Shown in pieces: positions 181 to 42,886 of a DNA stretch of 61,875 nt. The position numbers and the translations under genes are program-made. The notes under the pieces were generated by a model, which was given only the letters and a program-made list of their open reading frames with translations, was not told where the DNA came from and ran no database searches. Position 1 is the first letter of the stretch. Each line of letters starts with the position of its first letter. Source of the stretch: a virus; IMG/VR virus record IMGVR_UViG_3300021197_000785, positions 1 to 61,875 of that record; one strand, written 5' to 3'.

Positions 181-731
181 CTGTGACCTGTAAGTTGTAG
201 GGTGAATCTTTTGTCTAATCCAATGTTTGCTGCTAAGTGCGGTGTGTCGCTTTCCCAAAAGACATAATCGCCTGCACGCCAATCAGTAATAGGAACACCA
301 TCTACTTCGCTGATGTGACCACTACGCCAATCTTCTAAGAATACAACAACACGAACACAGTCCATTAGTCTAACATTAAATAGTTCTCTGTATTTTTTAT
401 ATGTGTCTTTGTGTGTAGGAAGAATAACACCCGTGCCCATGCGGTAGTAACTGGTACCAACATCTGTCACACTGTAAGTATCCTCAAACCATTTGATGAT
501 TTGATCATTCCAAGCGGGTTGCGGCTTGCGCATGTCACATAAAAATCCAGTGTAATGACTTTGAGGATGCACATAACCCTGTCGCTTCCATTTCATCATG
601 TCACTAGGGTTATTAAAACTTTCAAGAGCGTAGTTTAGTTGTGTATAACTTACTTTACTCCAAAAAGGTTCAATGTGACCTTTATGCCAACGTTCGTGTG
701 TTTCCGTAATGGATGACTGTATATCTGTCAT
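177..731 (-). CDS. 2OG-Fe(II) / Asp-Asn hydroxylase-like dioxygenase
   Basis: Protein of 184 residues with the metal-binding pattern of a double-stranded beta-helix dioxygenase: H107-x-D109 (PTHKDT), distal H165 (DTPHLAAN) and R175 (KRFTLQL), the usual 2-oxoglutarate ligand. An in-frame start exists at 758, but the ATG at 731 has a GGAGAA ribosome site about 9 nt upstream and reduces the overlap with the dehydrogenase gene to 50 nt, so I prefer 731. It sits at the end of a sugar-nucleotide operon. The substrate is unknown; hydroxylation of a sugar, amino acid or protein side chain are all possible. Confidence 0.75.
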   Translation of the reverse strand: MTDIQSSITETHERWHKGHIEPFWSKVSYTQLNYALESFNNPSDMMKWKRQGYVHPQSHYTGFLCDMRKPQPAWNDQIIKWFEDTYSVTDVGTSYYRMGTGVILPTHKDTYKKYRELFNVRLMDCVRVVVFLEDWRSGHISEVDGVPITDWRAGDYVFWESDTPHLAANIGLDKRFTLQLTGHR

Positions 732-1905
732 CTTTAAATTTTCTCCAAGGATCAACAACTACACTGCCGTCACTTAGATAGCAGTATAGTGTATCTTCAT
801 AGTTTTGTCTAGTATATTTGTATGTAGTCTCTGCACTATGTCCTAATAATGCTACTGCTTTGAATGGGCCACGTTGGGGATGTGTAAGTGGATCTACTAG
901 TATAGGATAATAACCCATCTCTTCACAGTAATGTGCAACAAGCAAACTATAACTGCCATCTTTGTATGGCACATCCGGCTTGTATGCAACACCGTGAATA
1001 AGCACAGGAAGGTCGTGCTGTTTTGCTTGTGCTACTAAAAATTCTGCTAGGTTCTTAGCCTGTATTTCACGAGCATTCATAATAGCATCGAAAATGTCAT
1101 AACCTAAATCTAGTTCCTGTGCCATGAAACGCAGGGCAATATTGTCACGCGGATGGCAAGCACCGCCATCACCCATCCCAGCAGTCATATACTGTGGTCC
1201 CATGATCCGTTTAGTTGACTCCGCCAGTGCCGTAGTAACCACGTCAACATTGATATTGCCCTGCTTGATTGCGACATCCTGTATCATGTTTGCTAGTGTA
1301 ATCTTTGTACTAATAAACGTGTTATAAAACACTTTGATACACTCGCACTCGTCCCAGGTACCAACTACATACCGGGGATCATTCTCAATAACAGTTTTGT
1401 ATAGGTCGATTAGTTCTCGTGCATCACCTGTATCACTACCATCTTTAGTGCCGATCATAACCATTTCAGGATTTCTAAAGTCCCATGCAACACTGCCCAT
1501 GGCAATCAAATATGGATTGTATACAAAACGGGTACATGTAACAAGTGGTTCTAACTCTCTGCGCACTGTGCCGGGTAACACTGTGCTAATAAGCACAAGC
1601 ATTTGTGATGGATACATACAAGCATTTGCCTCTATTAGCACATCCTTTACAATATTGTAACTAAAATCTTTTGGATCCAGGTGTGCAGTAGGTGATCTTC
1701 CATCATACGCAGAATCATGTGGAGTAGGGACAGCAACAAATACAATTTGTGCGTCCTTTACTGTAGTTTCTATAGTGGGCATTATTTCTACAAAATTGCT
1801 TTTTACTTTTGCAACATCATAACCTGTAACTTTATGTCCTACCTTAGCAAGTTCCTCAGCACAGGGCATACCTAGTTTGCCGCATCCTATAAATGCTATG
1901 TTCAT
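682..1905 (-). CDS. UDP-glucose/GDP-mannose 6-dehydrogenase family protein
   Basis: NAD-dependent four-electron oxidation of a nucleotide sugar to the uronic acid is the family reaction. Visible: an N-terminal Rossmann motif GCGKLG (residues 7-12), the STVLPGT segment (about 107-113), the conserved E/K/N helix around K191-N195, and the catalytic cysteine C250 in GGACHPRDN. At 407 residues it is close to family length. Its start overlaps the epimerase stop by 4 nt (ATGA). Together with the epimerase and glycosyltransferase upstream it probably makes and places an acidic sugar; the exact substrate (UDP-Glc, UDP-GlcNAc or GDP-Man) cannot be read from the sequence. Confidence 0.88.
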   Translation of the reverse strand: MNIAFIGCGKLGMPCAEELAKVGHKVTGYDVAKVKSNFVEIMPTIETTVKDAQIVFVAVPTPHDSAYDGRSPTAHLDPKDFSYNIVKDVLIEANACMYPSQMLVLISTVLPGTVRRELEPLVTCTRFVYNPYLIAMGSVAWDFRNPEMVMIGTKDGSDTGDARELIDLYKTVIENDPRYVVGTWDECECIKVFYNTFISTKITLANMIQDVAIKQGNINVDVVTTALAESTKRIMGPQYMTAGMGDGGACHPRDNIALRFMAQELDLGYDIFDAIMNAREIQAKNLAEFLVAQAKQHDLPVLIHGVAYKPDVPYKDGSYSLLVAHYCEEMGYYPILVDPLTHPQRGPFKAVALLGHSAETTYKYTRQNYEDTLYCYLSDGSVVVDPWRKFKDDRYTVIHYGNTRTLA

Positions 1906-2837
1906 TTATTATACCATTTGTATGCAGTACTGATAATACTGTCTAAATCGTGTTTGGGTTTCCAACCTAGGATTGTATTTGCTGCGTGTGTATCTGCGAT
2001 TAATGTGCTTGGATCACCTGCACGAGGATCTCCGTATTTTAAATTTACTGTAAGTGGTGTTACGCGATTGATACTATCCACAATTTCAAGATTACTGTAG
2101 CCTCTTTCGCCACCTAGGTTGAATGTATGGGCACCACTAGTTGTACCTAGCAGTTCAATACTATTTAGTATACCCTGCGCAACGTCCTCGACATGTACAT
2201 AATCACGCACACATGTACCATCATCAGTGTCGAACTCTTTGCCAAATAGTGTAAAGTCTTTGCCAGCCATGGTAAGTTCAATTGCTTTTGCAATGATGTG
2301 TGTAGCATCTGGTTCTTGTCCCATCTCACAGTCTGAGTCTGCACCAGCAACATTAAAGAAACGTAAACTAACACTGTTTAAATTATATGCAGTATAGTAG
2401 TCCTGCAATACAATTTCTATCATCTTCTTGCTCCAGCCATATGGCGAACAAGGCTGTGCATACATGTTTTCATGGCACACATCCTCACTTGGTTCACCAT
2501 AAACTCCTGCACTGCTTGCAAATACAAATGTACGCATGTCTGCCTCAACACAGTTGGTTAACAAGTCCAATGTATTACCAACATTGTTTTGATAATATAA
2601 GTCGGGATTCATTACACTTGGTCCAACTAGACTTGTTGCTGCCGCATGAACAACAGCATCAATGCCTCGTAACATGCCAACAGGTATTCGTGCGTAGGAG
2701 TTTATTTCCTTTTGATGATAGTAGTTGTGTTTTGGAACACTGTGATCATTTGCAATAACCTGATGTCCTTGCTGTGTAAGCAGTTTACATACTTGACCAC
2801 CGATATACCCGCTTGCGCCTGTTACTAATACTCTCAT
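1902..2837 (-). CDS. NAD-dependent nucleotide-sugar epimerase (GalE-like)
   Basis: Extended short-chain dehydrogenase of 311 residues. The NAD loop GASGYIGG lies at residues 7-14, the ASSAGVYG strand supplies the catalytic serine/threonine region near 108-114, and the YxxxK pair is Y133/K137 in YGWSKK. The RFFNVAGAD segment is typical of UDP-glucose 4-epimerases. The gene overlaps both neighbours by 1-4 nt, so it is translationally coupled with the glycosyltransferase upstream and the dehydrogenase downstream. Likely role: interconversion of UDP-hexoses for phage-directed glycosylation. A dehydratase or UDP-xylose-type enzyme is a less likely alternative. Confidence 0.88.
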   Translation of the reverse strand: MRVLVTGASGYIGGQVCKLLTQQGHQVIANDHSVPKHNYYHQKEINSYARIPVGMLRGIDAVVHAAATSLVGPSVMNPDLYYQNNVGNTLDLLTNCVEADMRTFVFASSAGVYGEPSEDVCHENMYAQPCSPYGWSKKMIEIVLQDYYTAYNLNSVSLRFFNVAGADSDCEMGQEPDATHIIAKAIELTMAGKDFTLFGKEFDTDDGTCVRDYVHVEDVAQGILNSIELLGTTSGAHTFNLGGERGYSNLEIVDSINRVTPLTVNLKYGDPRAGDPSTLIADTHAANTILGWKPKHDLDSIISTAYKWYNK

Positions 2838-4012
2838 TAGTACTTGCTTTCTGCTACATGGTCACGATACCTATTGCCGCTACGCAACCACTGTTCGCCA
2901 TTGCCCTGCATAATATCAAGCATGCGATCAATTGTTCCATCAGTCCAGTCGCTTATCTTACCCATGCGCGGACTTGGATTATCCAAGTGTGCAATGATCA
3001 TATCCACAGCACTTTCAATGCTCCATGGTGTATAAAGCCTAGTATGATCGTTAGCAAAAGTTTCCGGGAAACTACGATACGCAGGATACACAACATTACA
3101 ACCTAGTGCATCTGCTTCACTTACAGTGTTACTAACCCAATCCTGTAGCGCACAGTTAAACAATACTCTACTGTCATTAACAATGTTGTAGTAATCATTC
3201 TTTTGCAAGTCTTTGTATACTACAAGATCGCCTGTGTATTGTAAACGTTCTGCACGTTCCAAATACACAGCATTATTACTGCGTAGTGGTCCGCCACTTA
3301 GTACTGCAAATTCACAGTTAGGACGTACCTGTCTTACCATGGTAGCAACATCCATAAAGAAATTAGGCTGTTTCTCTTGGTCAAATCGTGCAGCAAATAC
3401 TACACGCTCTGCACGTTCACTAAATGGTTTAATGTTGTTATCAACACGCTCTTGCACTTCTTCTTTGCCAAAACTAAGACCGCTAATATTATAGATAGGA
3501 GCACTCCAGTTTGCAATACGCATGTGTGCAACCATTTCTTCATTGGTTGCTAGGATGTGTACATTTGGAATCTCGTTGCACATCTGTTCATACAAACTCA
3601 TCCACTTGCTCATACCCCATACATGCACAAAGTCATCTGGATCTACTGCTTGTGCTAAACAACGCAAGTATATTGTAGGGCGTTGTTCCTCTGGAATCTG
3701 ACACATAATATATGGCAAACTTTCAATACCAGGTTGAAACATGTCCTCAAAGAACACTGCATCTTCACCTGTACATTCACCATTGCGCATCATCTGCACA
3801 AGATTCATAAGTTGACTCATACCAAAATAACTGCGTCCATGTGCATCAAGCACTTGTCCTACACTAATACTTTTAGTATTGTCAATAGTTGTGCCTGGTA
3901 CAACAACATAATCTATACCACGTTTTCTGAAAGCACGTTCACTCCAGTCTTGCAACTGAAGTGTGTAACGTCCTTCATAGGGCTCAAGTCCCATATAGAA
4001 AAGTTTACGCAT
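2837..4012 (-). CDS. GT-B fold glycosyltransferase (GT4-like)
   Basis: 391 residues. The C-terminal half carries features of retaining GT-B enzymes: a VVFAARFDQEKQPNFF strand-loop, an AVLSGGP strand, and a donor-binding region with SNTVSEADALGCNVVYP, comparable to the E-x7-E/G-rich segment of GT4. There is no signal peptide. The stop meets the epimerase start directly. It probably transfers the sugar made by the next two genes to DNA, capsid or the host surface; the acceptor is unknown. No Walker or methyltransferase motifs argue for another class. Confidence 0.75.
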   Translation of the reverse strand: MRKLFYMGLEPYEGRYTLQLQDWSERAFRKRGIDYVVVPGTTIDNTKSISVGQVLDAHGRSYFGMSQLMNLVQMMRNGECTGEDAVFFEDMFQPGIESLPYIMCQIPEEQRPTIYLRCLAQAVDPDDFVHVWGMSKWMSLYEQMCNEIPNVHILATNEEMVAHMRIANWSAPIYNISGLSFGKEEVQERVDNNIKPFSERAERVVFAARFDQEKQPNFFMDVATMVRQVRPNCEFAVLSGGPLRSNNAVYLERAERLQYTGDLVVYKDLQKNDYYNIVNDSRVLFNCALQDWVSNTVSEADALGCNVVYPAYRSFPETFANDHTRLYTPWSIESAVDMIIAHLDNPSPRMGKISDWTDGTIDRMLDIMQGNGEQWLRSGNRYRDHVAESKY

Positions 4013-17351: not shown

Positions 17352-17648
17352 TCAATCCCTCATATTAAACGCAAAACTTACTTGCCTTGCTAGTTGTATG
17401 CCTTTGTCACGTTCGGCTTTTTTAGTACTCTTTTTCATTTTGTTTGCCTTAGCACGAAGTCTTTTTAAATCCGTTTTGCTAAGTTTATCTCCGGCGCCCT
17501 TACCTAAATACATTGCTGCTTTACGTTTTAAACTCCCTGGTCGGCTGCCTGGTTTTTCTGCTCTTTCATTAAAGTCCTCAGTTAGTTGTTGTAGTTCCTC
17601 CATCAGACTGTTGATTTTGTTGTTGTGTGTTGGCTGATCGTTGTCCAT
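17352..17648 (-). CDS. Basic hypothetical protein, 98 aa
   Basis: Starts inside the 3' end of the 1096-codon gene (71-nt overlap); an internal ATG at 17603 would cut the overlap to 26 nt. The conserved part is RPGSLKRKAAMYLGKGAGDK and a very Lys-rich helix after it. No cysteine. Seen size and charge fit a nucleic-acid-binding packaged protein, by inference only. Confidence 0.7.
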   Translation of the reverse strand: MDNDQPTHNNKINSLMEELQQLTEDFNERAEKPGSRPGSLKRKAAMYLGKGAGDKLSKTDLKRLRAKANKMKKSTKKAERDKGIQLARQVSFAFNMRD

Positions 17649-20600
17649 CGTTCTGCTCTTTTTGTTGCTGGATCCACGCTAGAGCTTTTCTGTTCTTAGG
17701 TGGAGTGTTTAAAAATCTCTGTGTCTCAACGTACACTTTATCAAAGTTTTTCTGTCTATCAATGTCTTCTAATCCTCCACTGTTGTCAATGATATGGAAA
17801 CGATCTGCACCAAAAATCTGCTGAAATTGCATTAAGTTTTGTTGTACGTTATTCCACATTTTTTCTACTTCTGCAGGTTTTAAACTGCGTTCTCTTTGCT
17901 TGTTGCGTTGTTGTGCAACTTCTAGGCTTGTGTTTACATATATCATACTAGTTTCATAACCAATGGCTTTTAGTTTTTGTGCCATAATTTGATACTTACT
18001 AACATCTTTGCCTGTGCCGTCAATAATCAAACCTAAACGTCCATCCAAGTAAGTTGCTTCGCGCCTACGGGATAAACCTTTTGCTCGATCACGGATCTCT
18101 TGGCCCTGGGGTGAATAGATAGTCTCAGGATCCAGAGAAAGACCCTGCTTATTCATTAAGTATTCATATACTTCATCGCTATTAATGCTACGCAATCCTG
18201 TGCCACCTAGTATGTTTTTAGCAACAAAACTTTTGCCAGCGCCTGGACCACCTGCTAGGAACACTGCTTTAAAGATGTGTGGGTCGTTTACGCCTTCGTC
18301 AACTTGTGCTTCTTGCACTGGCTCTTTCATTAAACTAGCAATTTGCTTTGCTAACTTGCTATTACGAGGAGCATCAGGCAGATCTGTCATTCTTAGTTTA
18401 CGAACTTCTGCAATCCGTGTGCCTTCATTTTTTTCAAATCTGCTAACAACTTCTTCTTGTGTGCCAGGACCATCAAAGTCATACATTGTATTGCCTTTTT
18501 GCACCACTGCATGATCAGCAGTTCCGTCATTGCGTACCAATGCCATAAGTTCGCCGCCGTGTATTAACTGTAATGCTTGCGCCACAACAACACAGCCTCC
18601 ATCAAATGGTCCAGCACCAATATTATCTAATAGCAGTTCATATACTTTGTCACTTGCGTCCTCGTCTACTTTATCCTTATCAAAGTAACCCTTAAATTTA
18701 TTTTTAATCTTATCATACATACTAGGTTCGTCAGGATCTTTTTTCTTATATCTATCACCTAGTCCAATTAGATCTGCAATGCGCTTGTCTGCGTCTGCTT
18801 CTTCTTTAGTTGGCTTACCATGTTTGTTATGTTGTGCCCATGCTATTGCATAAGGTGCACCTGGATCATCAAATTTCTTTTTTAGTTTTCTTACTTGTTT
18901 TTCTCTACCCGGAGGTGCTTCCTCAGTTTTTTTCTTTTTGCCTGCGCAGTGTGCTTTTTGCGAGAAACCTTTTGGATTGCTGCAGTTTATACTCTTTTTA
19001 TATTTTGCACTCCAGCCTTCTACTGGAAACTCTCTGTTAGGAGTCTTAAAATCTTTCTTACGCATAACAGTTTTAGCAATTAAGTCTAGTTCATTGTTGT
19101 CTTTGTCATACTGTAGTGCAAACGGCAAGTTAATATCTGTTTGCAAGTCTTTCATTACTGCTTCTTGTCCAGGTCCCATTTGCGCAATAGGCTTGCCGTA
19201 ACGTTTAAACTCTTGCTTAAACAGTCTAGTAAGTTCCGCCATTGTAATAGGCTTTACGTTACGAGCATCATTTACACGATCTAAGAAGTGACGTGTGAAC
19301 TCTACATCAATGCCTACTTTAGCAAACAGTTTGTCTGCAAACGTTTCTAGTTGATCTAAGTCAACAGAGGTAATTGCTTCGTTTGTTACTTTAGTCCAAT
19401 TGTTTGCATCCGCTAATAGAGATTGCGCATATTCTAAATAGTCATGATCATCTGCAATACTATATTCTTGTGGTTGGATAAAACTAATAGACTTGTCAGG
19501 GTTTACTCTAACAGTGATATTTTCTTCATTGTGTTTATAGATTCCTGATTCAAGTGCGTGTCTTAAGTCTACATCTTCGTATTTTAGTTTACCTGGTGTA
19601 CTCTTTTTAATCTTAAGTGGGCGGTGTGGAAACAGTGTCATTACAAGTCCACTACTAAACGGAACACCAATACTACCACGCTCATATATGTCTTTGTAGT
19701 ATGTTTTTTCAAACTTGTTTACTAGGTCATATAGTTCGTAAGCAGGCAAGTTAACACGGAACACATTTAAGTCTGCGCCTGTGTTAATAGCAACTAGCCA
19801 TCTATGATGCCCGTCCATGATGTAGTCGTCGCTACTCGCAATAACTGCTTTTCTGTTTGGTCCTTGTTCAATGTTCTTCATTAACTGCTTCATAATGCCT
19901 TCGTCGCTAAACTCTTTTTGCATTGCTTTTAGGTCACGAGCAGGGATAGTTTCTTTGGTAAACTTAGCACCATTCTTTTGTAGATAGTCTATAAACTCTG
20001 CATAGTCATCGCTTTTTACTTGCGGCATTTCTTTACGCAGTACACCTAGTGTGTCTTTAGGATCTGGTTTTTCAATGCGTAGTTCATTCATCTTCTTAGT
20101 TTTTTTCTTCATAGCATTTATATAGCGTCTGTACACTGCGGCGGCACTTGATTTGCCTGCTGCTTTTGCACGTTGCTCCATTGCTATAGCGGCTTGTATC
20201 TTATGTGCATGTTTCTTGCCTGAACTTTTAATCTTACGCACACTGGCTTCTGCATCCTTAACTGTTGCAAATTTTAGTCCTTGTATTGTACCTTTTGGAT
20301 TCTCATCTGTGTATAGATCACTGTGCTTTTTGCTACCAGCCTTTTGTCCTTTTTTACGAGGTATGCGTTTGCCTTCTGCCATCATTAACGCACTTGTTGG
20401 AATAACACCTTTGTATGCCAGTGTGCTATCATCATCCATTACATTTGGATCATCATCTAGTTTATCCATGTCCAACTTGCTAGTATCAATAGCAAATACA
20501 ACAATATTATCAATGTATTCGTCTGGCACTTCTTCATTTGCTTCTGCATGACTTTCTGCTACTTCCGGATCTTTAGCAAGATATACATATCCTGGTTTAC

Positions 20601-20868
20601 TATCTTCCCACTGTTGCTGGGCACCTGCACCGCCTAGTCCGTTTTTCATAATACTGTCTACAAATGCTCCGTAGGTAGCATGATACAATACATCAGCATC
20701 CTCAGAGATGCCTAGGTTAAACAGTGTGTTAGGGTCACTGTTCTTTGCTGCAGTAGGATGTAACAAGCCAAGTTTTTTAGCCTGACGTTTTGTTTCGCCT
20801 GGTTTAACATCCTTGGTTGTATTCTGTGTGGTAATTATACCAACGCCTGCAACTTCGCCTAGTTTCAT
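17578..20868 (-). CDS. Giant multi-domain 'polyvalent' protein: ART-like, ParB-like, cysteine-peptidase-like and P-loop kinase modules
   Basis: 1096 residues. N-terminus MKLGEVAGVG resembles the block's targeting pattern. Residues about 58-165: ADP-ribosyltransferase/KptA-like unit with LYHAT (H63) and GYVYLAKDPEVAESHA. About 170-260: basic helical module. About 300-400: ParB-like domain with the DGHHRW box (352-357). About 500-605: a domain with DVEFTRHFLDRVND. About 627-645: INCSNPKGFSQKAHCAG cysteine motif. About 745-800: papain/NlpC-like triad candidate C759, H786, D797/D799. About 865-1065: P-loop kinase resembling zeta toxin/T4 Pnk, with GGPGAGKS (873-880) and IIDGTGKD. Such mosaics are known as phage polyvalent proteins, thought to be delivered with DNA. 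Domain calls after the P-loop and ParB ones are tentative. Confidence 0.82.
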   Translation of the reverse strand: MKLGEVAGVGIITTQNTTKDVKPGETKRQAKKLGLLHPTAAKNSDPNTLFNLGISEDADVLYHATYGAFVDSIMKNGLGGAGAQQQWEDSKPGYVYLAKDPEVAESHAEANEEVPDEYIDNIVVFAIDTSKLDMDKLDDDPNVMDDDSTLAYKGVIPTSALMMAEGKRIPRKKGQKAGSKKHSDLYTDENPKGTIQGLKFATVKDAEASVRKIKSSGKKHAHKIQAAIAMEQRAKAAGKSSAAAVYRRYINAMKKKTKKMNELRIEKPDPKDTLGVLRKEMPQVKSDDYAEFIDYLQKNGAKFTKETIPARDLKAMQKEFSDEGIMKQLMKNIEQGPNRKAVIASSDDYIMDGHHRWLVAINTGADLNVFRVNLPAYELYDLVNKFEKTYYKDIYERGSIGVPFSSGLVMTLFPHRPLKIKKSTPGKLKYEDVDLRHALESGIYKHNEENITVRVNPDKSISFIQPQEYSIADDHDYLEYAQSLLADANNWTKVTNEAITSVDLDQLETFADKLFAKVGIDVEFTRHFLDRVNDARNVKPITMAELTRLFKQEFKRYGKPIAQMGPGQEAVMKDLQTDINLPFALQYDKDNNELDLIAKTVMRKKDFKTPNREFPVEGWSAKYKKSINCSNPKGFSQKAHCAGKKKKTEEAPPGREKQVRKLKKKFDDPGAPYAIAWAQHNKHGKPTKEEADADKRIADLIGLGDRYKKKDPDEPSMYDKIKNKFKGYFDKDKVDEDASDKVYELLLDNIGAGPFDGGCVVVAQALQLIHGGELMALVRNDGTADHAVVQKGNTMYDFDGPGTQEEVVSRFEKNEGTRIAEVRKLRMTDLPDAPRNSKLAKQIASLMKEPVQEAQVDEGVNDPHIFKAVFLAGGPGAGKSFVAKNILGGTGLRSINSDEVYEYLMNKQGLSLDPETIYSPQGQEIRDRAKGLSRRREATYLDGRLGLIIDGTGKDVSKYQIMAQKLKAIGYETSMIYVNTSLEVAQQRNKQRERSLKPAEVEKMWNNVQQNLMQFQQIFGADRFHIIDNSGGLEDIDRQKNFDKVYVETQRFLNTPPKNRKALAWIQQQKEQNDGQRSANTQQQNQQSDGGTTTTN

Positions 20869-28236: not shown

Positions 28237-28922
28237 TTATTTGTTTTCCTTATTTGATATTCAATAATTTTGTTTACTTTTGACCCAAGTTTAAATTGTA
28301 CAAGTTGTAGTAATCGTTCATTGGTTACATATCCAATGTTTTCGCCACACCATGTACCCCATCTGCGCACTGTGTCACTGTTGTTTATTTGAATATCATC
28401 TGGATATTGCATTGCCCAACGTGACCAATCAGTAAATTCTTCGAATGACATACGTTCGCCTACTATCTGAAATTTAAATTTATTATATGGTAAGCGTTTT
28501 TTTCTATAATGTATGTTACGATCTGCCTGTGTGCCAGGAAAATACCGAACACTTACAAGTTCCAGTATTGTATCAGTAACATCCGATTCTTTACTGTTAA
28601 GACGATTTACATACTGTATAACCTGATCTATATTATCAAGGTCACTAGTATAATAATTAAGTATTGTTCTTTCAACACGCACTCTATCATTGTGTCTTTT
28701 AGCAAATCGTCTTACTGTTCCACTAAAACTTTTTTGTATTTCTGTATCAACTTTGTATCCCCACCAGTCAACTGTTCTGACCTTCATTAACTCTGGCACA
28801 CGGTACTGATACATTAATACTTCAAGACGATAAAGATACTTGCCGTAAAAAAGTCTATCGTTATGCTTTAACGCTAGGTTGTGCTGATTGCTCAGCGTCT
28901 CCAACTTCTGCAGTTGATCCAT
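28233..28922 (-). CDS. Hypothetical protein, 229 aa
   Basis: Starts within the last 62 nt of the Clp gene; an AGG ribosome site about 7 nt before supports this ATG. Basic, Tyr/Arg-rich, with aromatic segments KVRTVDWWGYK and DWSRWAMQYPDD. No catalytic motif recognised. Its transcription follows dnaJ-clp, so it may belong to the same chaperone-linked unit. Confidence 0.75.
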   Translation of the reverse strand: MDQLQKLETLSNQHNLALKHNDRLFYGKYLYRLEVLMYQYRVPELMKVRTVDWWGYKVDTEIQKSFSGTVRRFAKRHNDRVRVERTILNYYTSDLDNIDQVIQYVNRLNSKESDVTDTILELVSVRYFPGTQADRNIHYRKKRLPYNKFKFQIVGERMSFEEFTDWSRWAMQYPDDIQINNSDTVRRWGTWCGENIGYVTNERLLQLVQFKLGSKVNKIIEYQIRKTNK

Positions 28923-31134
28923 CTTTATACCTAAACTTTATTAATAGACTATTGTTTGAATTTCTAACTTTAATTTTACAGCCAATTGCTGGTTTGTCAA
29001 CTAATTTCTTTGCAATAGGCATGCGTAACATTGTATCTATAGCACGAGCCATGGGCCTTGCTCCCATGCGTTCATCATATCCCTGTTCAAGAATAATATC
29101 AACACTTGGTTCATCAACGCTAAGTGCAACTCCTTTGTCTTTGAGTTGCTCCTGCAATTCTTGTATAAACTTTAGTGCTACTTTACGTTTTGCAATTTCG
29201 TCCAATGCGCCAAATGCGCACACTGCATCAATACGATTACGGAACTCAGGAGCAAAGAACTTTTTATAGGCATCTTCTGCTGCCCCTTCAACACGATCTC
29301 TACCAAAACCAATGGCGTTCTTTTCACCTTCGCTTGCGCCCAGATTTGTTGTAAGAATAACAAAACAGTTTCTAGCATCTGCACGTTTGCCGTTTGATCC
29401 TGTCACAAAGCCTTCATCCATAAGTTGTAGTAGTACATTGCTTACATCTGGATGTGCCTTTTCAATTTCATCAAACAATATTACTGCATGTGGATTACGT
29501 TCAATGTCACGAATAAGTAATCCTCCACCAAGGTTACCATCTTCAAATCCAACATATCCAGGAGGTGCACCAATAAAACGTGCTACAGTATGACGCTCTT
29601 GATATTCGCTCATATCATAGCGTAGTAATTTCATGCTATTTGCACTAGCAAGTTGCTTTGCAAGTTCTGTTTTGCCTGTGCCTGTTGGTCCAGTAAACAC
29701 AAATACGCCCAGTGTTTTATCGCGCTTGTTAAGTCCTGCTTTAGCAACCCATACTTTATCAAGTACACTGTCAACCGCTGTATCCTGTCCATAGACCTTG
29801 CTTTTAATTCTATCACTAATTGCATCTGGCTGTATCACAGATTCCTTCTTTTCACCTAATTGGCTAATAGGAATCTTTGCATACTTGCTAATCTCCTCAA
29901 GAATATTTTGACTATCAATTACAGGATTTTCTGTTCCTAGTCTACGTTGTTTTGCACTTGCGCTGTCAATCATATCAAATGCTTTATCAGGTAGTCGCTT
30001 GTCTGTCAAATAGCGCACACTCAAATCCACAGCATCATTCACTGCTTGTGCTGTAATCTTACAACTGTGAAACTTCTCATAGTATTTTTTACTGTTCATA
30101 AGAATCTTTTTAGCAAGTTCAGATGAAGGTTCGTCAACAGTAATGTGATAGAAGCGACGCATCAGCGCACGATCTTTTTCAAAACTACTGTTGTATTCCT
30201 CCCATGTAGTACTGGCAATAACTTTTAGTTTGCCTCTACCCAAATAAGGTTTTAACATATTGGCAAAATCAGTCCCACCATTGCCGCCGGCACCTGCACC
30301 TTTAAGTGTGTGTGCTTCGTCAATAAACAGTATACACTTGCCTTTTTCAATCAGTGCACCTAATACTTCTTTAACACGTTCTTCAAACTGTCCACGGTAC
30401 TGTGTACCAGCAAGCATGTTTGCTACATCTAGATTATATACAATGTGATCTTGTAAATATACAGGCACTTCTTTTCTTACTATTTTTACAGCAAGTCCTT
30501 CTGCTACTGCAGTCTTACCTACACCTGGATCACCTACCATAAGCACATTGCTTTTATTGCGGCGTGCAAATGTTTGTGTTATATCATCAATGACGTCGTC
30601 CCTGCCAATTACAGGATCTAGTGTCTTTGCCCGTGCCTGTTCATTTAAATCTTCACAGTATTCATTAACAATACCATCAAGATACTGTTCGTGTTTCTGG
30701 CTTAACTGACGGGTTTTATTATTGGTTTTCATAAACCGCATAAACTCGTCTTTGGATACATTGTATTTCATTAAAAAGTAACTACTGTGACTGTTTTGTT
30801 CACTAGTAATGCTTATAAACAAATCAAATAGTGTTAGTGTTTCTCTGCCACTAAACAACACACTGGTCATTGCACGATTGAATACACGTTCCAAGGATTG
30901 CGTTTTGATTTGTCCTGTGCCGTCCACACTTGAAAATGCGTCCACTAAGTGGCTTTCTAAATCAAGTTGCAGTTCGTTTAGTTGTACTCCGAACTCCAGT
31001 AAATTTTTTGCAAACTCTTTATTTTTTAATATAGCAAGCAAAAAATGTTCTGTACTTAGGTACTGATGTCCATACTTGCTTGCTATTTTGCCAGCAAAGG
31101 CTAGTGTTTGATCTACTTCTTTAGCAGTTTTCAT
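28861..31134 (-). CDS. ClpA-like AAA+ unfoldase (Hsp100)
   Basis: 757 residues (E. coli ClpA 758). N-domain about 1-140; AAA-1 with Walker A GDPGVGKT (201-208) and Walker B CILFIDEAH; AAA-2 with GPTGTGKT (482-489), Walker B VILFDEIEKAH (551-561), and the FRNRID arginine/sensor region near 631. There is no ClpB-type middle coiled coil, so it is ClpA/C-like. An IGF tripeptide at 608-610 sits where ClpA has its ClpP-docking IGL loop. Unfolds proteins for a peptidase or remodels complexes in the cytosol. Cotranscribed with the J-protein (4-nt overlap). No ClpP in the window, so host ClpP may be the partner. Confidence 0.93.
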   Translation of the reverse strand: MKTAKEVDQTLAFAGKIASKYGHQYLSTEHFLLAILKNKEFAKNLLEFGVQLNELQLDLESHLVDAFSSVDGTGQIKTQSLERVFNRAMTSVLFSGRETLTLFDLFISITSEQNSHSSYFLMKYNVSKDEFMRFMKTNNKTRQLSQKHEQYLDGIVNEYCEDLNEQARAKTLDPVIGRDDVIDDITQTFARRNKSNVLMVGDPGVGKTAVAEGLAVKIVRKEVPVYLQDHIVYNLDVANMLAGTQYRGQFEERVKEVLGALIEKGKCILFIDEAHTLKGAGAGGNGGTDFANMLKPYLGRGKLKVIASTTWEEYNSSFEKDRALMRRFYHITVDEPSSELAKKILMNSKKYYEKFHSCKITAQAVNDAVDLSVRYLTDKRLPDKAFDMIDSASAKQRRLGTENPVIDSQNILEEISKYAKIPISQLGEKKESVIQPDAISDRIKSKVYGQDTAVDSVLDKVWVAKAGLNKRDKTLGVFVFTGPTGTGKTELAKQLASANSMKLLRYDMSEYQERHTVARFIGAPPGYVGFEDGNLGGGLLIRDIERNPHAVILFDEIEKAHPDVSNVLLQLMDEGFVTGSNGKRADARNCFVILTTNLGASEGEKNAIGFGRDRVEGAAEDAYKKFFAPEFRNRIDAVCAFGALDEIAKRKVALKFIQELQEQLKDKGVALSVDEPSVDIILEQGYDERMGARPMARAIDTMLRMPIAKKLVDKPAIGCKIKVRNSNNSLLIKFRYKDGSTAEVGDAEQSAQPSVKA

Positions 31135-31949
31135 TTATCATCCCGTAATTTCTTGCATATATTTAATTGTTGTTCAGTTAAGTTTTCAGGTATTTTAACC
31201 AATACTTGTACAAGCAAATCACCTCTTGTACTAGTCTTTGTGTACATACCATGATTGGGTATTTTCAGCGTTGCACCGTATTGTGTGCCTGCTGGAATAT
31301 TTAGGTTGAGTGTCTTATTTTCAATAGTATGTATTTGAACTACTGTACCTATTATAGCATCCCATGCGCCTATTGTCAAGTGCATTTTTAGGTTGTCATT
31401 GTCTCGGGTAAACACTTCGTGGTCTAGCATATTAATTGTAACAGTAAGGTCACCAGGACTTAAATTACTATGTATGTAATCTCCTAGTCCACTATATTTA
31501 ATTTTTGTACCATTGTTGACTCCAATTGGTATCTTTAAATTTACAAGATGCCTTGAACCGTTGGTGTGTCTTATGCTAACTGTTTTTTGTTGTTCGCTTA
31601 GTATTTCTTCCAGTGTGCAGTCCACTGTGATGCCCAGGTTTTTATTTGATTTTACACGTTGGTAATCGCGTTTACTAGGATGGAATCCTGCACTGCCAAA
31701 TACAGTAAACATGTCATCATAAACATCACTAGTGTTTATCTTAATGTTTTGCCTACGACTGTTGCGAACGTCAAATGCTGCACGTTTATGAGGATCTTTA
31801 AGAACTTCATATGCTTCTGCAACCGCGTGGAAAGTGTCAACATCTCCGCCGCTGTCAGGGTGATGCTGTTTTGCTTTGTTGCGATATGCTGATTGTATAT
31901 CTTTAGGACTACATGTAGGTTCCAGTCCTAGTACATCATAATAGTTCAT
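31131..31949 (-). CDS. J-domain co-chaperone (CbpA/DnaJ-like)
   Basis: 272 residues: J domain about 1-65 with H30-P31-D32 (KQHHPDSGG), a linker, then two DnaJ C-terminal beta domains (from about 105, with IGVNNGTKIKYSGLGD and IPAGTQYGATLKI). The zinc-finger cysteines of DnaJ are absent, so it is CbpA-type. J-proteins stimulate DnaK ATPase and select substrates. First gene of the unit, with a promoter just upstream, coupled to the Clp gene by ATGA. Expected to redirect host DnaK. Confidence 0.88.
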   Translation of the reverse strand: MNYYDVLGLEPTCSPKDIQSAYRNKAKQHHPDSGGDVDTFHAVAEAYEVLKDPHKRAAFDVRNSRRQNIKINTSDVYDDMFTVFGSAGFHPSKRDYQRVKSNKNLGITVDCTLEEILSEQQKTVSIRHTNGSRHLVNLKIPIGVNNGTKIKYSGLGDYIHSNLSPGDLTVTINMLDHEVFTRDNDNLKMHLTIGAWDAIIGTVVQIHTIENKTLNLNIPAGTQYGATLKIPNHGMYTKTSTRGDLLVQVLVKIPENLTEQQLNICKKLRDDK

Positions 31950-31956
31950 AACTGTA

Positions 31957-31985
31957 ATTATACTATACTAGGACTGGATTGTAAA
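31957..31985 (-). promoter_or_regulatory. Sigma70-type promoter for the J-protein/Clp unit
   Basis: Minus-strand TTTACA (31985-31980), 17 nt, TATAAT (31962-31957), 8 nt before the ATG at 31949. One mismatch in -35, perfect -10. The short leader means the mRNA would begin close to the start codon. Confidence 0.68.
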
Positions 31986-42650: not shown

Positions 42651-42724
42651 TGGCAGAGGATGTAGGAGTCGAACCCACGCTTACAGGGTTGGAGCCTGTC
42701 GTGCTACCGTAACACTTATCCCCT
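42651..42724 (-). tRNA. tRNA-Trp (CCA)
   Basis: Cloverleaf readable by eye on the minus strand: acceptor AGGGGAT paired with ATCCTCT (one GU), D stem GTGT/GCAC, anticodon stem ACAGG/CCTGT with loop CTCCAAC (anticodon CCA), T stem GTGGG/CCTAC, and genome-encoded CCA. 74 nt. Good tRNA geometry, so likely functional. Confidence 0.9.
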
Positions 42725-42729
42725 ATATT

Positions 42730-42805
42730 TGGTACTCCGTACGGGACTCGAACCCGTGTTGCTCGCGTGAAAGGCGAGTGTCCTAGACCGCTAGACGAAC
42801 GGAGC
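42730..42805 (-). tRNA. tRNA-Glu (TTC)
   Basis: Minus strand: acceptor GCTCCGT paired with ACGGAGT (a G-T pair at 1-72), anticodon stem CTCGC/GCGAG around CTTTCAC (anticodon TTC), T-loop GTTCGAGTC, encoded CCA. 76 nt. Confidence 0.9.
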
Positions 42806-42809
42806 ATAT

Positions 42810-42885
<76 letters not shown>

Positions 42886-42886
<1 letters not shown>

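Follow-up and report, generated by a model that had tools for sequence, protein, structure and literature searches.

The virus record IMGVR_UViG_3300021197_000785 of IMG/VR (61,875 bases; hereafter the window, meaning this whole stretch of DNA) carries adjoining genes for a J-protein and a ClpA-like AAA+ unfoldase. The explanation favoured here, at a probability of about one half, is that both genes form a single expression unit in a T4-superfamily phage and that their products serve as a substrate-selecting Clp front end on the ClpP protease of the host. The ClpA hexamer would thread substrates through its pores and dock on ClpP by means of six IGF loops. The J-protein, a member of class B, would bind misfolded or multimeric clients and stimulate DnaK, probably that of the host, and J and DnaK together would either ready these clients for ClpA or refold them. 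Phages of this clade very probably supply the adaptor ClpS as well. Since ClpS is present and no ClpP is found as far as these genomes are sequenced, host ClpP would be the most likely docking partner, and a phage selector would be added onto a host protease.

Profile searches resolved the unfoldase into Clp_N, two AAA+ modules, and D2-small. The protein matches the PHROG family phrog_4871 over its full length (residues 5-735, 747 bits, 3.9e-224) and aligns end to end with the structures of E. coli ClpA (7-713, 7e-174). The ClpA of solved ClpAP complexes likewise aligns over the full length. It is collinear with E. coli ClpA in a single stretch (6-722), and the middle-domain insertion is absent. 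ClpX profiles gave only weak local matches. The score against TIGR02639 (754 bits) lies under the NCBIfam equivalog cut-off of 993, and the protein is therefore filed, on its sequence, as phage ClpA-like and not as an orthologue of cellular ClpA. In a tree made with a quick method, the phage ClpAs group in one clade (100 percent support) to the exclusion of every cellular ClpA sampled. They thus look like an ancient viral lineage, not a host gene of recent date; the same tree gives no support to a recent capture from the host. The clade of the window comprises 11 tree rows with 99 percent support. The best cellular matches of the phage ClpA are mostly alphaproteobacterial (41-42 percent identity), and the phage clade is not nested within the alphaproteobacterial ClpAs. 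No evidence identifying a host was found in this analysis, and the SAR11 or other alphaproteobacterial host considered in an earlier, sequence-only reading of this DNA is unsupported.

The second AAA+ module holds the ClpP-docking tripeptide expected of a ClpA. The sequence-only reading had placed an IGF at residues 608-610 in the docking position, and the alignment with the docking motif of E. coli ClpA (I617-G618-L619), the role of which is known (PMC7707817; PMC8745299), bears this out. Of 82 phage ClpA sequences, 78 have IGF, and the others have MGF (2), IGI (1), and IGM (1); in the window's clade the tripeptide stays IGF. After the phage set had been thinned to 63 sequences, the entropy at 608, 609, and 610 was 0.12, 0, and 0.23 bits, against 1.5-2.6 bits at 607 and 611-616. 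IGF is hence a conserved island in a hypervariable loop and not a chance occurrence, and ClpP docking is therefore probably retained. Residues 608-612 are modelled as a loop of low confidence, as expected of a free docking loop. The designation of the IGF as ClpX-type had to be given up. Among the cellular ClpA/ClpC loci sampled (n=80), 50 have IGF and 79 have xGF, so that IGF is the common state of cellular ClpA and does not mark an origin from ClpX. Among the cellular sequences compared, IGL is confined to an Erwinia locus and E. coli ClpA. The two sister ClpAs with IGI and IGM (L049 and L076, respectively) come from partial records in which ClpP was not found. In RaK2-like phages and Vibrio phage 2.275.O (L324, L326, L327, L328), the docking tripeptide has degenerated to IGV, MNM, or IGG, and the phage ClpP is divergent; a co-evolved private ClpA-ClpP pair or a loss of docking are both possible there.

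The use of host ClpP by phage ClpA is not a general rule, because most ClpA phages encode a ClpP. Among the first 27 records tested, all six of at least 280 kb have both ClpA and ClpP. A reciprocal search found ClpA in five of five ClpP-bearing records of at least 200 kb, and ClpP is present in seven of eight further isolate or assembled phage genomes with ClpA. The phage ClpPs of the J-ClpA group are canonical, with the catalytic Ser, His, and Asp in place; five of them, when aligned, are 82 to 61 percent identical to one reference. These observations favour a self-contained phage ClpAP, with ClpP in the unsequenced part of the genome and host ClpP uninvolved. So does the usual site of ClpP in the sister clade, about 45-90 kb upstream of clpA, as the window holds only 30 kb upstream. 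This alternative is rated less probable than the favoured explanation, and it has to be weighed against the genomes closest to the window.

The window is collinear with a 203-kb relative (G007; 57 shared open reading frames, median identity 62 percent) and with a 101-kb one (G002). The site at which ClpP would be expected adjoins a UvdE-like gene: ClpP is found there in G079 and, more loosely placed, in G021 and G022. In G002 and G007, this slot holds other genes, so that both clade relatives spanning it are ClpP-empty. A further record, G091, and G002 represent a single virus (99.98 percent over 21 kb), of which about 124 kb are thereby covered. ClpP is absent from G007 and from the joint G002/G091 sequence, and it was not found in about 1 Mb searched in the window's clade. 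Within the 62-kb window itself, none of ClpP, DnaK, and ClpS was found. ClpS is encoded in G007 and G091, an identification backed by the family model and by solved ClpS sequences. Likewise, two other records, G011 (167 kb) and G097 (172 kb), have ClpA and ClpS, and ClpP was not found in them. The empty slot and the ClpS genes in the clade speak for the earlier suggestion that the unfoldase could feed host ClpP, and the ClpP genes in most ClpA genomes of the wider group speak against it. Two ClpP-bearing records were considered as possible sources of the missing information. The first, G079 (72 kb), shares its sample with a close ClpA relative; it was rejected as the lineage's missing part, its median identity to G007 being 42 percent versus 62 for the window. 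The second, G075, was sampled together with a more distant member of the clade; it shares no genes with the window, G002, or G007 and is uninformative.

Several considerations weigh against a role for host ClpP. With 9 ClpP in about 4.7 Mb, the density seen in the sister clade predicts about 2 in the roughly 1 Mb of the window's clade; finding none has a chance of about 0.15 and is weak evidence. The window is a 62-kb fragment, and ClpP may lie elsewhere in the genome. ClpP genes are present in most of the other ClpA phages, the outgroups Atu_ph07, Phosso, and PA5oct among them, and two empty slots are insufficient to settle its absence. Physical docking, the substrates, and the joint action of J and ClpA are inferences drawn from sequence. 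Host-ClpP capture in the window's clade is nevertheless plausible.

The ClpS proteins of the clade differ from the usual form in their binding pocket. At the position aligned with the pocket His of Caulobacter ClpS, G007 (L111) has Ser and G091 (L419) has Asn, and the gatekeeper Met is replaced by Phe. Most sister-clade ClpS retain the pocket His. The changes suggest an altered recognition by ClpS. A leucyl/phenylalanyl transferase, which would have made the N-degron pathway fuller, was not found in any of the 24 records searched. A gene for an Hsp20-like small heat-shock protein stands beside ClpS in several sister-clade phages (L104-L108), and in G023 a DnaK gene adjoins ClpS. A more detailed scenario can be drawn, although it is speculative and, taken as a whole, rather doubtful. 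The lineage would have lost its own ClpP and kept ClpA, ClpS, and J; the viral unfoldase and an adaptor with a remodelled N-degron pocket would seize the host ClpP barrel during infection. The mRNA of J would be leaderless, and a promoter nested in J would provide additional expression of clpA.

The two proteins could also act without any protease. J and ClpA, together with DnaK, would then remodel or disaggregate phage proteins in replication or virion assembly. ClpA is able to remodel proteins by itself, the unfoldase is genetically coupled to a J-protein, and some relatives carry DnaK (3 of 27) and, by inspection, Hsp20. Roles in assembly have been suggested by earlier authors (PMC7824862; PMC6102473). 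In that case, however, nothing would keep the docking tripeptide from drifting, as it has done in the RaK2-like phages, and yet it is conserved. Furthermore, the collinearity with ClpA leaves no insertion similar to the ClpB middle domain for contact with DnaK, and the co-carried ClpS indicates ClpAP. A protease-free pair is thus considered unlikely.

The J-protein consists, according to profile searches, of DnaJ (3.8e-19) and DnaJ_C (4.5e-34), and the zinc finger is absent. It possesses the J-domain with its HPD motif and the two C-terminal beta domains of class B. The predicted model has a mean pLDDT (predicted local distance difference test) of 84, with a disordered linker at residues 66-96, and matches Thermus DnaJ and human Hdj1; the protein is therefore assigned to class B (CbpA/Hdj1-like). 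Its scores against the curated models are low, namely 136 bits for CbpA (against 403) and 178 bits for DnaJ (against 377). DnaK is encoded in 3 of the 27 records searched and was not found in the window or in the other 24 records, which include Atu_ph07, Phosso, G002, and G007. As the HPD motif is invariant and the window, G002, and G007 show no DnaK, host DnaK is the likely partner of the J-protein in the window's clade. The proposal that the J-protein could recruit host DnaK therefore agrees with the motif and with the gene content.

The pairing of J with clpA extends far beyond this clade. Viral contigs were scanned for relatives of the window's ClpA, and 80 were obtained. Wherever a viral contig leaves room for it, J immediately precedes clpA on the same strand; in the sole contig lacking an upstream J, clpA begins 88 bases from the contig end. 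The gap between the two genes ranges from -28 to +82 nucleotides, except in one contig and in Phosso. The order J-then-clpA is annotated in Agrobacterium phage Atu_ph07, Sinorhizobium phage Phosso, and Pseudomonas phage PA5oct. In Phosso, a peptide deformylase gene stands between the two; it was rejected as a general part of the unit, as only 2 of 27 records have it. A gene other than J is annotated next to clpA in RaK2, Munch, XaC1, Hallingskeid, Vibrio 2.275.O, and Salicola SCTP-2.

Such adjacency might simply reflect general synteny without joint action. Indeed, other neighbours are syntenic too (72 and 59 of about 80 loci for the next two), and an internal promoter permits expression of clpA without J. 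On the other hand, no neighbour but J is universal (80 of 81 loci), and the coding ends of J and clpA overlap in the window and its closest relatives. Adjacency is also kept in Atu_ph07, Phosso, and PA5oct, whose hosts differ and whose ClpAs are only about 37-41 percent identical. Mere neighbourhood is accordingly judged improbable, and the J-ClpA pair appears, from its distribution, to be an old phage unit. The ATGA shared by the J stop and the clpA start makes translational coupling possible.

The unit has two conserved promoters. The first, P1, matches the sigma-70-type consensus at 11 of 12 positions. A promoter of this type (at least 10 of 12 matches within 75 nucleotides of the start) precedes 63 of 80 J genes, compared to 2.2 in shuffles. 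Of the 70 J genes whose promoter reaches 9 or more matches, 58 have a -10 box that ends 6 or 7 nucleotides ahead of the start codon; start codons were re-chosen beside the conserved N-terminal motif, which leaves some freedom in this spacing. In the window, the -10 ends 7 nucleotides before the J ATG. With the -10 so near and a normal start-site spacing, transcription is predicted to begin at the AUG or one base before it, giving a leaderless J mRNA. In Deinococcus-Thermus, a -10 box adjoining the start codon goes along with leaderless expression (PMC12340547). The layout of P1 occurs at a few percent of the other genes of these phages, and within the window at J alone. In G002, G007, G079, G021, and G022 (L286-L319), strong sigma-70-type promoters with the -10 ending 5-8 nucleotides (mostly 6) before the start stand at a few percent of the genes, UvdE and clamp-loader genes among them. 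A class of leaderless phage mRNAs is possible. Upstream of J in L022, L027, L032, and L037, a terminator-like hairpin has the -35 TTGAC in its loop (e.g., GGCAG-TTGACCA-CTGCC-TTTTTT) and is followed by the -10, which makes it a compact terminator-promoter element.

The second promoter, P2, is a perfect consensus inside J, about 220 nucleotides ahead of clpA, and was overlooked in the sequence-only reading. Its codons (Leu TTG, Ala GCT, and two Ile ATA, together with adjoining ones) are frozen at synonymous sites in 13 close relatives, against a background in which just 19 percent of conserved codon columns have a single codon. P2 recurs at the same position in the distant loci L021, L022, L027, L035, L061, and L062. 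The sequence-only reading had spoken of an early-type promoter for both genes. The conserved sigma-70-type promoter is real, and its early action is an interpretation: the coding strand of the whole window has 14 sigma-70-type sites of at least 11 matches versus 2.1 expected, so the presence of a promoter alone is no proof of early timing. The least probable of the explanations considered is counter-defence, in which the phage J would compete with host DnaJ in DnaJ-dependent phage sensing, reported for bNACHT25 as cited in PMC12619734, and ClpA-ClpS would remove defence proteins; the conserved and possibly early-acting promoters, the location of the pair amid replication genes, and this literature link fit it, but as to defence target, localisation, and host it is purely inferential.

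The features of the unit are compiled in Table 1; the location of both genes at 28861-31949, their frames, and the residue numbers of the sequence-only reading all proved correct. The window has no end repeats and is a fragment, probably of a much larger genome. Its proteins include T4-superfamily replication and baseplate proteins, and the J-ClpA pair lies with the DNA polymerase on one side and the clamp loader on the other. Elsewhere, the window has a row of UDP-glucose dehydrogenase, nucleotide-sugar epimerase, and glycosyltransferase-like genes (682-4012), and a cluster of three tRNA genes (Trp, Glu, Arg; 42651-42886) near a PhoH-like gene. A 1096-aa protein (17578-20868) has a C-terminal zeta-toxin/polynucleotide-kinase-like P-loop domain and further phage-family matches along its length.

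Table 1 Features of the J-ClpA unit (positions in the window)
Feature	Position	Strand	Remarks
Promoter P1, TTTACA-17-TATAAT	31957..31985	-	Occupies the space from the preceding stop codon to the J start
J-protein gene	31131..31949	-	272 aa: J-domain, flexible linker of ~30 residues, two DnaJ_C modules
HPD motif of the J-domain, residues 30-32	31854..31862	-	Kept in relatives with complete N-terminus
Promoter P2, TTGACA-17-TATAAT, extended -10 (TGC before TATAAT)	31351..31379	-	Within the J gene
ATGA overlap, J stop / clpA start	31131..31134	-	4 bases shared
ClpA-like AAA+ unfoldase gene, 757 aa	28861..31134	-	Profile, structure-sequence and model comparison
Walker A, first AAA+ module, GDPGVGKT, residues 201-208	30511..30534	-	Sequence motif
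Walker A, second AAA+ module, GPTGTGKT, residues 482-489	29668..29691	-	Sequence motif
GYVG substrate-gripping pore loop, second AAA+ module, residues 526-529	29548..29559	-	Motif, alignment of relatives
IGF tripeptide, ClpP-docking loop, residues 608-610	29305..29313	-	Alignment, conservation

The individual genes have been reported before. ClpA, ClpP, ClpS, and DnaJ were listed for Atu_ph07 in 2018 (PMC6102473), DnaJ, ClpP, ClpS, and ClpA were surveyed in jumbo phages in 2021 (PMC7824862), and DnaJ, DnaK, Hsp20, and ClpA were described in 2025 as features of aquatic 'moraphages' (PMC12619734). Their roles in jumbo phages were left undecided between virion assembly, aggregate clearance, and host takeover (PMC6102473; PMC7824862; PMC12619734). 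In the open-licence literature searched, no report was found of a universal J-ClpA adjacency, of the two conserved promoters, or of a ClpP-empty clade. The contrast between clades with and without a phage ClpP, the tripeptide being intact, makes the use of host ClpP directly testable. If true, a phage would capture a host protease by putting its own unfoldase and its own adaptor in place of the host's. The conserved promoters, of which P1 is leaderless and P2 lies inside J, are an additional regulatory feature that can be checked.

Compared to known systems, the unfoldase resembles the cellular ClpA of ClpAP (TIGR02639; PDB 6w1z, 1r6b), to which it aligns end to end at about 40 percent identity, with the same N-domain, two AAA+ modules, D2-small, and (I/L/V/M)-G-(F/L) docking loop. 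It differs in its score below the equivalog cut-off, its own clade, and the J-protein gene ahead of it. It belongs, at similar length, to the jumbo-phage ClpA family phrog_4871, together with gp292 of Atu_ph07 and the RaK2-like phages; the ClpA of the 'moraphages' is listed as VOG02072. Atu_ph07 also has DnaJ directly upstream of ClpA, plus ClpP and ClpS, whereas the search of the window's clade yielded no ClpP, and the slot for it is empty. The RaK2-like members of phrog_4871 have degenerate docking tripeptides, in contrast to the IGF of the window's clade. ClpS, the N-degron adaptor of ClpAP, is present in this clade (G007, G091), with the pocket His and the gatekeeper Met replaced. As for the J-protein, it shares the HPD J-domain, the linker, and the two C-terminal beta domains without zinc finger with the class B J-proteins (CbpA, Hdj1/DNAJB1) and Thermus DnaJ, but it differs from them by its low scores, its short linker, and its operon with clpA.

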